From positions 1 to 64,000 of the forward strand of contig NZ_JSBW02000067.1 in NCBI RefSeq assembly GCF_000772705.2: a DNA stretch of 64,000 nucleotides, in the 5' to 3' direction. Both the position numbers and the translations under genes were made by a program. The stretch comes from Xanthomonas vasicola (lineage in GTDB: Bacteria; Pseudomonadota; Gammaproteobacteria; Xanthomonadales; Xanthomonadaceae). Under the pieces are notes generated by a model. That model was given only the letters and a program-made list of their open reading frames with translations. It had not been told where the DNA came from and made no database searches. Below, piece after piece: positions 36,387-40,099 of this stretch (position 1 is its first letter; every line of letters starts with the position of its first letter).

Positions 36387-37410
36387 CGACCGTCTCCAGA
36401 GGGGCGGAAGGCTGCTCGGCCGCGGTGGCATGCGCGCCAGATTCATCGACCGGCACCGGGTGGCCGGCGGCATACCAGGCATAGAAGTCTGCAGCACGTG
36501 CCAGCTCCAGATCGGGGTCGGCCAGCATGGTCTGGTCGCGCGGGTCCAGGCCCGGCTTGGCCACTGCTTCCGGCAGGTCGGCCGCGGGCAGTTCTTCCAC
36601 CAAGACCGGCGCCGCGTCGGTCACATGCAGCACGCCAGCCGGCGCCTGCGACACGGGCTCGGGCGGTAGCGCCGGCCGGCGGTGGGTCCACCACCAGCCC
36701 AGCACCGCCAGCAGCAGCGCCACCACCAGCACGCCCAGCGCCATGCCTGCGTGGCGGCGCTCCAGCTGCGGCCACTGCCATTGCCGCCTGGGACGCGTGC
36801 GTGCGGTGGCCGGACCCGGACGATGCGGCGCCGGTGCTGCCGCGGCCGGCGCGGCCGTCTGTAGCGACATCCCGGCCAAGGCCGAATCGCGCAGCTGGCT
36901 GAGCCGGGTCAACTGGGCCGGGGTCAGGTCGCGCAGTTCCACTTGCGCCGCCTCGGCCAGGGCCCGCCAGGCCTGTGCATCGGGGTTGCCGGCAGCATCG
37001 CGCGGGCAGGCGCGCGCCAGCGACTGTCGGTAGTCCGCCGCCTCGACACCCTGCACCTCGCTGGCCACTACCTCTTCCAGCCCGGCCACGATCCGCAGCA
37101 GCAGGGCCAGGCGGTCGGCGGTCTGCATCTGGCCCAGCGCGGTGAATGGGGGCAGCCAGGTGCCCGGCATTGGCTCGCGTCGCAGCGGTGGCGCGGTGGC
37201 CAGCAAGCTCCAGAAGCGCATCGGCCAGCCAGCCATCGGCCGACCTGCCGCCTGGCTGCTGAAGGCGCGCAGAGCCGCTGCGAGGGTGCGCTCGGCGGTG
37301 GCAACGTCGCCGCATTGCAATTGGGCGAGTACCAGACCCCGGCGCTCGACACCGCGCAAGAAGGCAGATAGCGCGGCAGGGGTCACGGGGGCGTCGGGGA
37401 CTACGGTCAT
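36370..37410 (-). CDS. Membrane protein with a degenerate sigma-factor-like N-terminus
   Basis: 346 residues. Residues about 5-70 (LRGVERRGLVLAQLQCGDVATAERTLAAALRAF, WPMRFWSLLATAP) follow the spacing of ECF sigma region 2, and residues 90-130 (ADRLALLLRIVAGLEEVVASEVQGVEAADYRQSLARA) follow region 4. The usual acidic and aromatic residues for core and promoter binding are absent. An Ala/Pro linker leads to one transmembrane helix (about 220-240: GMALGVLVVALLLAVLGWWW) and a periplasmic tail. GGAG lies 7 bases before the ATG. The sigma likeness is my reading of the sequence, not a confirmed homology. Confidence 0.55.
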   Translation of the reverse strand: MTVVPDAPVTPAALSAFLRGVERRGLVLAQLQCGDVATAERTLAAALRAFSSQAAGRPMAGWPMRFWSLLATAPPLRREPMPGTWLPPFTALGQMQTADRLALLLRIVAGLEEVVASEVQGVEAADYRQSLARACPRDAAGNPDAQAWRALAEAAQVELRDLTPAQLTRLSQLRDSALAGMSLQTAAPAAAAPAPHRPGPATARTRPRRQWQWPQLERRHAGMALGVLVVALLLAVLGWWWTHRRPALPPEPVSQAPAGVLHVTDAAPVLVEELPAADLPEAVAKPGLDPRDQTMLADPDLELARAADFYAWYAAGHPVPVDESGAHATAAEQPSAPLETVDDEAN

Positions 37411-37876
37411 GAGAACTCCAGCATCGGCCGGCATGATACCGACGCGATTGGCCACCGCCGATGGCTTGACAGATCGGCCCGGCCCAGCTCCGCCTTCACG
37501 CCAGCCGCGCCCATCACCGCTGCGGGTTGTGCACAGCGGCAGACATACCGATACGCGGGCATCTGTCAACTGTTGTTTTTTCTTTGTTGCAATCGTGTTT
37601 CACGCCTAAGTGATTGAAATTTATTAACTTATGCATGTTGGCTAAAAAATGTCCAAGGGGTTGAAGAGACTAGTGAATCCGTCGTCATAGCGTGGAGCAC
37701 GAGACTAATTCACAGGTTTATCCACAGGCGGTGTGGATAAACCCGTTTCCTTAACCCTCACATAGGTTTACGTCGGATTTATCACTTCCGTCACAGAACG
37801 CGGCGCCGCTCCGGCGCCGATTTGAACCGGCTCGGGTCGGCTGCCGGCCTCTGGACAGGGTCGGTAGACTGGTCGG
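37411..37876. promoter_or_regulatory. AT-rich divergent spacer upstream of priA
   Basis: 466 bases between the divergent sigma-like gene and priA. 37560-37660 is markedly AT-rich for this genome, with runs such as GTTGTTTTTTCTTTG and AAATTTATTAACTTATGC. It is followed by two perfect inverted DnaA boxes at 37715-37743. It probably contains both promoters. No ORF is supported. Confidence 0.6.
37715..37743. promoter_or_regulatory. Inverted pair of perfect DnaA boxes
   Basis: TTATCCACA at 37718-37726 and its reverse complement TGTGGATAA at 37732-37740 are separated by GGCGG. They are the centre of a longer palindrome, GGTTTATCCACA / TGTGGATAAACC. Both match the strongest E. coli DnaA-box consensus exactly. 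No U run follows, so a terminator is less likely. Confidence 0.7.
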
Positions 37877-40099
37877 ATGTCTTCGACCGTCGCCACCCTG
37901 CGCGTCGCCTTGCCGGTGCCGCTGCCTCAGTTATTCGACTATCTGCCCCCGGCCGATGCGCCGCTGACCGATCAGGCACGGGTCGGCTGCCGGGTGCGGG
38001 TGCCGTTTGGGCCGCGCGAGCTGGTCGGCGTGGTGGTGGAGATCGGCCAACTGCCAACGGCCGACGGCCTGCGCCTGGCATTGGCCTGGTGCGACCAGGC
38101 GCGGCTACTGGTCGATGAACTGGCACGCTCGCTGCAGTGGCTGGCCCGCTACACCCATGCGCCGCTCGGCGAAGCCCAGGCCAGCGCCCTGCCCGGCCCT
38201 TTACGCCGCGGTGAGCCCTTGGCCGACACCCACGCCTGGGCCTGGCAGCTGACCGAAGCCGGCCGCAGCGGTGCCGCCAGCCTGCGCGCGGGCAGCCGCC
38301 CCGCTCTGTTGGCGGCTCTTCTGCTCACCGGTGCAGTCGGCGAAGAGCAACTGGACCCGCTCCTGCCGCAGTGGCGCGAGGCCGCGCGCAGCCTGGCCAA
38401 GCGTCACTACGCCGAGCGCGTGGCGATGCCGGCGGACACCATCTCACCGCGCCCGGGCAGCGGCCCCCAACTCAACGACGAACAACAGGCGGCGGCCGCC
38501 GCGATCCGCGCGCACAGCGGTTTTGCCACCTATCTGCTCGATGGCGTCACCGGCAGCGGCAAGACCGAGGTCTACCTGCAGGCGATTGCCGATTGCCTGG
38601 CCGCCGGCAAGCAGGCGCTGGTGCTGGTCCCCGAGATCGGACTGACCCCGCAGACGCTGGGCCGCTTCCGTGCACGCCTGGGCGTGCCGGTGCACGCGCT
38701 GCACTCAGGACTCTCCGATGGCGAACGCGCACGGGTGTGGGCAGCGGCCTGGCGCGGGGAGGCCAAGCTGATCGTCGGCACCCGCTCGGCGGTGTTCACC
38801 CCATTGCCCAACGCCGGCCTGATCGTGATCGACGAAGAGCACGACGGCAGCTACAAGCAGCAGGACGGCATCCGCTATCACGCGCGCGATTTCGCGCTGG
38901 TGCGCGGCAAGGCGCTGGATGTGCCGGTGATCCTGGGCAGCGCCACCCCATCGCTGGAGAGCCTGCACAATGCCTACTCCGGCCGCTACCAGCATCTGCG
39001 CTTGTCGCGCCGTGCCGGCGAAGCGCGCCCGCCGCGGGTACGTGTGCTGGATGTGCGCAAGCGTCCGCTCAAGGACGGCCTGTCGCCCGAGGTGCTGGCC
39101 GGCATCGGCGCCACCCTGGCGCGCGGCGAACAGGTCCTGGTATTCAAGAACCGCCGCGGCTATGCGCCGGTGCTGCTGTGTCACGACTGCGGCTGGACCG
39201 CCGCCTGCCAGCGCTGCAGCACGCCGCTGCATCAGACCCCGATGACCGTGCATGCCGGCGGCCGCCGCCTGCAGTGCCACCACTGCGGCGCGCGCCAACC
39301 CGCACCGCTGGCCTGCCCGGCCTGCGCCAGCCTGGCGCTGCAACCGCAGGGCATCGGCACCGAACGGCTGGAAGAGCGTTTGACCGAGGCGTTCCCGGAC
39401 TTCCCGGTGGTGCGCATCGACCGCAGTACCACCCAGCGCCGCGACGCACTGGAAACTCAGCTCGCCCGGCTCGGCACCGATGCCGGCATCCTGGTCGGCA
39501 CGCAGATCCTGGCCAAGGGCCACGATCTGCCACGGCTGACCATGGTGGTAGTGGTCGGCATCGACGAAGGCCTGTTCTCGGCCGACTTCCGCGCCGCCGA
39601 AAAACTCTCCCAGCAGTTGATCCAGGTGGCAGGACGCGCCGGGCGTGCCGATCGCCCGGGTGAAGTCTGGCTGCAGACCCACCACCCCGAGCATCCCTTG
39701 CTGCAGACCCTGGTCAATGGCGGCTACCACGCCTTTGCCGATGCCGAACTGCAGCAGCGCGAAGCGGCTGGATTCCCGCCCTTCGCGCACCTGGCCTTGT
39801 TCCGTGCCGAAGCCAAGGATGTGACGGCGGCCAATCAGTTCCTGCTGGCGGTGCGTGGCTTGACCAGCGCCGACCCCAGCACGCAATCGCCGGCATTTGC
39901 TGCAGTGGAATGCTACGGCCCGATGCCGGCACCGATGCCGCGCCGCGCCGGTTTCCAACGCACCCAGCTGCTGTTGTCGGCGCAGCAACGCTCGGCATTG
40001 CATCGGCTGCTCGATACGCAACTGCCGGCGATCTATGCATTGCCGCAAGCCCGCCGGGTGCGCTGGTCGCTGGATGTGGACCCGATCGACTTGTATTAG
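37877..40099 (+). CDS. priA: Primosomal protein N' (replication restart helicase PriA)
   Basis: 740 residues. It recognises stalled forks and reloads the replisome. The N-terminal 3'-DNA-binding domain (about 1-105) begins with VALPVPLPQLFDYLPP. The helicase has Walker A GVTGSGKT (223-230), DEEH box IDEEHDGSYKQ and LGSATPSLESL. Eight zinc-binding Cys are seen in CHDCGWTAACQRCSTP and CHHCG...CPACAS. The C-terminal helicase lobe includes ILVGTQILAKGHDLPRLTMV and QVAGRAGRADRPGEV. The start lies about 134 bases from the DnaA-box pair. Confidence 0.96.
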   Translation: MSSTVATLRVALPVPLPQLFDYLPPADAPLTDQARVGCRVRVPFGPRELVGVVVEIGQLPTADGLRLALAWCDQARLLVDELARSLQWLARYTHAPLGEAQASALPGPLRRGEPLADTHAWAWQLTEAGRSGAASLRAGSRPALLAALLLTGAVGEEQLDPLLPQWREAARSLAKRHYAERVAMPADTISPRPGSGPQLNDEQQAAAAAIRAHSGFATYLLDGVTGSGKTEVYLQAIADCLAAGKQALVLVPEIGLTPQTLGRFRARLGVPVHALHSGLSDGERARVWAAAWRGEAKLIVGTRSAVFTPLPNAGLIVIDEEHDGSYKQQDGIRYHARDFALVRGKALDVPVILGSATPSLESLHNAYSGRYQHLRLSRRAGEARPPRVRVLDVRKRPLKDGLSPEVLAGIGATLARGEQVLVFKNRRGYAPVLLCHDCGWTAACQRCSTPLHQTPMTVHAGGRRLQCHHCGARQPAPLACPACASLALQPQGIGTERLEERLTEAFPDFPVVRIDRSTTQRRDALETQLARLGTDAGILVGTQILAKGHDLPRLTMVVVVGIDEGLFSADFRAAEKLSQQLIQVAGRAGRADRPGEVWLQTHHPEHPLLQTLVNGGYHAFADAELQQREAAGFPPFAHLALFRAEAKDVTAANQFLLAVRGLTSADPSTQSPAFAAVECYGPMPAPMPRRAGFQRTQLLLSAQQRSALHRLLDTQLPAIYALPQARRVRWSLDVDPIDLY

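Follow-up and report, generated by a model that had tools for sequence, protein, structure and literature searches.

The recharging of DnaA has been worked out in E. coli. In the parts of the literature covered here, the opposed DnaA boxes I and II are described as essential for a DnaA-reactivating sequence (DARS) and box III as helpful (PMC10380432, PMC8682772); DARS2 requires IHF and Fis, and moving either the IHF or the Fis site alters its activity (PMC4245941). E. coli has 52 box pairs of similar arrangement with 0 or 1 misfit, from which its two DARSs were identified (PMC5835720), so a matching geometry is not sufficient to make a DARS. Another E. coli site, datA, acts on DnaA in the direction opposite to DARS; it depends on boxes 2 and 3 plus an IHF site, and the box-to-IHF spacing matters for each (PMC4585315). 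As to distribution, Kasho 2014 reported that conservation of the DARS2 core is specific to relatives of E. coli (PMC4245941), and a later review describes DARS-like sequences as conserved in many proteobacteria (PMC10380432).

The window analyzed here is a stretch of 64,000 nucleotides from Xanthomonas vasicola. A sequence-only reading had pointed to two perfect inverted DnaA boxes five bases apart in an AT-rich spacer beside priA, and the coordinates of the boxes as well as the drop in GC content were confirmed. That reading lacked a third box, the flanking IHF- and Fis-type sites, and the interpretation that fits the arrangement best, that of a DARS core. The features are as follows.

37732 to 37740, minus strand: DnaA box I, TTATCCACA on the minus strand and thus TGTGGATAA on the plus strand; exact consensus; the box nearest priA
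37718 to 37726, plus strand: DnaA box II, TTATCCACA; exact consensus; inverted relative to box I across a gap of 5 bp
37706 to 37714, plus strand: DnaA box III, TAATTCACA; same direction as box II across a gap of 3 bp; one mismatch to TTWTNCACA
37640 to 37654, no strand given: Fis-type site, GGCTAAAAAATGTCC, at +86 from box I; perfect match to GnnYAnnnnnTRnnC; a candidate by consensus
37607 to 37619, no strand given: IHF-type site, TAAGTGATTGAAA, at +121 from box I; one mismatch to TAAnnnnTTGATW; a candidate by consensus
37550 to 37699, no strand given: AT-rich segment with GC of 36% and 41% in 100-base windows, which holds the Fis- and IHF-type sites
37877 to 40099, plus strand: priA, the neighbor gene, with the PriA_3primeBD, PriA_C, Zn_ribbon_PriA and helicase Pfam domains

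GC content is lowest at 37550-37649 (36%), as compared to 64-80% in 100-base windows outside 37500-37849. The identity of priA as one flanking gene stood, and its product is 92-97% identical to PriA of named Xanthomonas. The gene on the other side of the spacer, earlier described as sigma-like, is doubtful as such: it had no Pfam match at E 0.001 and scored 21 bits against a sigma-factor model, far below the cut-off of 173. Single copies of TTATCCACA are not enriched, with 14 in the whole X. vasicola genome as compared to 24 for the reversed word, and single boxes with one mismatch occur in the window at chance level (3 found, 3.83 expected). The genome-wide count of the pair, TTATCCACA followed by TGTGGATAA at a gap of 0-60, returned one occurrence in 4.92 Mb and none for the reversed control. 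It is thus the paired geometry, and not the number of single boxes, that stands above chance in both window and genome.

For comparison, the E. coli K-12 DARS1 and DARS2 regions were measured in the same way, with core boxes assigned by place and pattern. The DARS1 region reads TTATCCACT, a gap of 5, inverted TTATCCACA, a gap of 3 and TAATACACA; the DARS2 region reads TTATTCACC, a gap of 5, inverted CTATCCACA, a gap of 3 and TTCTTCACA. The gaps and directions of boxes I, II and III in the window are identical to those of both E. coli cores, and box III, which is TAATACACA in DARS1 and TAATTCACA here, follows at the equal gap. By sequence, then, the element answers to the definition of a DARS core, and release of ADP from DnaA would be its predicted activity. 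Boxes I and II at a gap of 5 and box III at a gap of 3 are both present, and a location at uvrB or mutH is not: the element lies at priA, whereas E. coli DARS1 occupies the bioD-uvrB spacer and DARS2 lies upstream of mutH. Counting the start of box I as 0, E. coli DARS1 has no IHF consensus (at most one mismatch) from +30 to +220, unlike the window with its IHF-type site. In this respect the element resembles DARS2, since in both the IHF- and Fis-type sites, as matches to consensus, lie beyond box III. The order of these sites is opposite, however: DARS2 runs core-IHF-Fis, with one-mismatch IHF matches at +93 and +109 and a perfect Fis match at +145, whereas the window runs core-Fis-IHF, with the Fis-type site at +86 and the IHF-type site at +121. 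The DARS2 region also has a further perfect box at +211, where the window has the near-consensus TTGTGCACA at about +205. In its arrangement the element is a predicted DARS variant, linked to priA and with its Fis- and IHF-type sites in the order opposite to that of E. coli DARS2. We consider it likely, judging from these comparisons and those that follow, that it is a DARS acting like those of E. coli.

The spacer was present in all 35 genus genomes searched, and boxes I and II were invariant in the alignment of these 35. Across the family, whose sequences, like those of the genus, are related and not independent, the exact pair occurred in 227/247 genomes, with reversed controls of 0. It was single copy in all positive genomes but five (G179, G209, G224, G237 and G248, with 2 or 3), and the gap was 5 at every place among the matches listed, although 3-8 was permitted. 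Fourteen of the 20 genomes without an exact pair had a core at up to 3 mismatches (241/247 in total; reversed controls zero), which leaves 6/247 with no core by either search. The best third box lay at gap 3 in 30/30 family loci, with 1-3 mismatches. A PriA match accompanied 44 of the 46 family loci with a core match (29/30 exact-pair loci and 15/16 from the mismatch search); the two without were L081, which was ended early by its contig, and L102, a 3-mismatch second place in G092. In one genome, G246, a single priA is accompanied by two DARS-type cores (L088, L101), which are separated by about 400 bases. That a conserved DnaA site lies here, as had been proposed, is strongly supported by these comparisons.

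The pair also forms the center of a 29-base palindrome at 37715-37743, GGTTTATCCACA-5-TGTGGATAAACC, which was present as described. Such a palindrome could encode an RNA hairpin, either a transcription terminator or a structured RNA. The fold of the plus strand at 37600-37780 was more stable than that of any of 200 shuffles (z -3.15), and there is one terminator-like match, where shuffles average 0.7. Outside the genus, however, the boxes were kept and the palindrome was not: all three outer stem pairs are retained in 21/35 genus genomes and in 0/30 family loci, which argues against a hairpin. The sequence-only reading had named lack of conservation in sister species as a refutation; the boxes stood up to this and the 29-base palindrome did not. 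The two 9-mers stay in the family while the 5-base loop varies, and no Rfam match near gathering score was obtained in 36500-38500. A structured RNA, first considered for the stable plus-strand fold, was dropped on the family comparison and the lack of an Rfam match, and we regard an RNA hairpin of either kind as very improbable.

A site that lowers free or ATP-bound DnaA, by titration or in the manner of datA, was also weighed. High-affinity boxes near an IHF-type site, together with a pair that is usually single copy in the family, fit such a role, and E. coli datA and the element share DnaA boxes plus an IHF site (in the window, an IHF-type consensus). Three boxes, though, would hold few DnaA molecules. 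In a datA site the two essential boxes flank the IHF site; here the IHF-type site has boxes I-III together to one side and only the weak TTGTGCACA to the other, which makes a datA-like arrangement unlikely given the dependence of datA on box-to-IHF spacing in the parts of PMC4585315 covered. The titration site proposed by the sequence-only reading found no specific support, and a site of either type is improbable here.

Beyond the family, the core at up to 2 mismatches was found in 119/121 genomes of the order sample and 214/276 of the class sample, with the reversed control at 0 in both; 62/276 class genomes had no core at this threshold. Some cores in the class are near-identical to E. coli DARS1. 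The phylum sample yielded the core in 118/249 genomes, where, outside the class, families f186, f190 and f194 often had it and no core was found in families f185, f195, f198 and f202. The E. coli DARS1 stretch itself occurred in 5374/5426 E. coli genomes, a count that is uninformative on the window.

The position beside priA suits another explanation, in which the site is a promoter under DnaA control that serves priA or the divergent gene and at which DnaA, Fis and IHF would set transcription through the cell cycle. The N-terminal domain of PriA was found in 149/158 class genomes (the X. vasicola genome and two of its family among the 149), and the scan took in as many as 600 bases ahead of each gene. 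With up to 3 mismatches allowed, the core preceded priA in 61/149 (31 perfect) as compared to 0/745 shuffles, and other gaps between boxes I and II (0 to 12) gave 0 or 1 of 149. Orientation was uniform, with box I nearest priA in 61/61 class priA-linked cores, and the third-box word TGTGNA was exact at gap 3 in 53 of these 61. The corresponding test of third-box gaps was not sharp (other gaps 10-48/149 as compared to 61), because two perfect boxes leave three mismatches free in a five-base word. No core stood within 600 bases upstream at up to 3 mismatches for 88/149 class priA genes, and the E. coli priA-rpmE spacer has none. A set of 80 named loci gave a similar result, as 56 of them carry a core with no more than 3 mismatches ahead of priA: L395 and every testable locus of L316-L372 (55 in number), most of these being Xanthomonas, Stenotrophomonas and Lysobacter relatives. 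Two of the 80 (L359, L367) begin at or inside priA and were outside the test. The 22 loci L373-L394, which include Buttiauxella, Enterobacter, Kluyvera and Leclercia and also Salinisphaera, showed no core; L380 among them is only 543 bases long. L340 of this set is recorded as a Bacillus subtilis SK7B5 contig; its priA is Stenotrophomonas-like and has a core, and the contig is probably mislabelled or contaminated. A link to priA that is far above chance and of one orientation therefore suggests some local advantage or cis role. Against a promoter as the main function, the PriA domain lies at a variable distance from the core in the class, roughly 70 to 350 bases when measured from the core's far edge (approximate values), and a crude scan of 37300-38000 gave no sigma-70-like promoter.

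The flanking sites bear on the same question. Matches with at most one mismatch were sought at +85 to +87 for Fis and +119 to +122 for IHF; the test omitted 5/45 family loci by the core filter and, for length, 1/61 class priA sequences and 1/22 priA loci. In the genus the Fis-type site was in place in 35/35 (shuffle mean 1.43), the IHF-type site in 33/35 (shuffle mean 0.14) and both in 33/35. The family counts were 19/40 for Fis-type, 38/40 for IHF-type (shuffle mean 0.10) and 17/40 for both, so that in the family the IHF-type site is well established, the Fis-type site less so. Within the named set, the Stenotrophomonas mori locus (L335) retains both flanking sites. Class priA-linked cores had the Fis-type site in 47/60, the IHF-type site in 42/60 and both in 35/60, and cores without priA had them in 30/38, 27/38 and 25/38, respectively; shuffle means for both sites together were 0.00-0.02. 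The X. vasicola genome encodes a Fis homologue (51% identity over 75 residues).

These cores without priA came from 38 of 60 loci (L103-L162) of the class and order searches, where priA was absent from the fetched flank; absence here means that tblastn with the window PriA gave no match in the fetched sequence, so that a very divergent priA could escape, and several of the loci are shortened by contig ends (e.g., L115, L117, L133, L148, L149). Twenty ORFs beside 18 of the 38 cores, each the longest on one side, were examined. Sixteen fell into diverse Pfam families, including photolyase, class II tRNA synthetase, peptide release factor, DctM transporter and GTP cyclohydrolase, with an integrase family at two loci; 4/20 matched none at E 1e-8, and a PriA domain was found in 0/20. 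When neighbors in L103-L162 were compared with E. coli UvrB, MutH, RppH, YgdQ, PtsP (partial), BioD, CytR and RpmE, only RpmE matched, at 2/38 non-priA loci and 0/22 priA loci. Equal spacing of DnaA boxes, Fis- and IHF-type sites at cores beside such diverse genes points to a function in trans, so that a trans-acting DARS is more probable for the element than a priA promoter. The DnaA-controlled promoter proposed earlier may hold as a side role; as the whole explanation it is unlikely, given the equal site spacing at cores without priA and the variable distance to priA.

The X. vasicola DnaA is 58% identical to E. coli DnaA (257 of 442 aligned residues; 65 of 94 in the DNA-binding domain), and it agrees with E. 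coli at L290, R281, R285, D269, R334, R399 and T435. E. coli R227 is replaced by Q, and in E. coli the R227A substitution severely impairs DARS2, according to the part of PMC4245941 covered. The dnaA region (L045:4060-8085) lies on a contig (C64) other than that of the element, which is therefore outside the dnaA-dnaN neighborhood; consensus boxes occur upstream of dnaA and in two spacers after it, with rpmH, dnaN and recF recognized by eye. The spacer before the recF-like gene holds a pair in the opposite sense, TGTGGATAA and then TTATCCACA, at a gap of 27 bases. Across nine genomes of the genus, the distance between dnaA and the element was 0.62-0.88 Mb in 7/9 and 42 and 63 kb in two, where a path across the contig end (G007, G011, G024) presumes a circular contig.

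These distances also bear on a secondary replication origin or melting region. AT-rich DNA does adjoin the DnaA boxes, but the dnaA region with its box-bearing spacers lies on another contig and, in the nine genomes, 42 kb to 0.88 Mb away, and the boxes stand head to head, whereas the oriC arrangement is head-to-tail in the covered part of a review (PMC10380432). The melting region put forward in the sequence-only reading found no specific support, and we give an origin or melting region hardly any weight.

If the element is a DARS, boxes I and II would be occupied by two ADP-DnaA molecules in head-to-head arrangement, and a third DnaA on box III would strengthen the complex. IHF and a Fis-type protein would bend and brace the AT-rich flank, which would lead to release of ADP, and the apo-DnaA could then take up ATP and become able to start replication at oriC. 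Binding of the proteins, ADP release and an effect on initiation are what we infer from the arrangement of sites. Several observations argue against the DARS reading: the 52 similarly arranged pairs of E. coli, the Q at the position of R227, the Fis consensus in only 19/40 family loci, the differing order of the flanking sites, the oriented link to priA and the genomes that lack the core.

A tentative evolutionary account, which we hold to be somewhat doubtful, can also be given. A priA-linked DARS of the order core-Fis-IHF, present in many families, may be ancestral in the class, with E. coli DARS1 and DARS2 arising later, relocated and rearranged; besides recharging DnaA in trans, such an element might couple expression of the PriA replication-restart helicase to the state of DnaA. 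Among the matches listed, titles and abstracts on DARS, DnaA boxes, priA and the Xanthomonas oriC described no DARS at priA; the covered part of PMC13220808 names only the E. coli DARS sites, and PMC12371093 makes no mention of priA. The priA link and the Fis-IHF order were thus not found in print in the literature covered. Wide occurrence of DARS is partly known, because DARS-like sequences in many proteobacteria are reported in the covered part of PMC10380432.

A DARS-type core in 214/276 class genomes would allow the ADP-to-ATP switch of DnaA to be tested in a broad variety of bacteria. In the Xanthomonadaceae, where the exact pair is usually single copy, the system would be simple, since a single deletion would remove the site. 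The order of the Fis- and IHF-type sites, fixed yet different from that in E. coli, would allow a test of models in which DNA bending drives the release of ADP.

Other stretches of the spacer are conserved as well. Between box I and priA, at 37760-37795, CACATAGGTTTACGTCG followed by ATTTATCAC is strongly conserved in the genus and is perhaps the priA promoter, and on the minus strand at 37561-37569 the largely conserved TTGACAGAT could be the -35 element of the divergent gene. The weak box at about +205 is part of GTTGTGCACAGC (37526-37537), a palindromic near-consensus DnaA box (TTGTGCACA) that is apparently invariant in the alignment of 35 genomes. Finally, TGTTTCACGC at 37596-37605 adjoins the IHF-type site and is conserved in the genus; we take it to resemble half of a ParB parS site.
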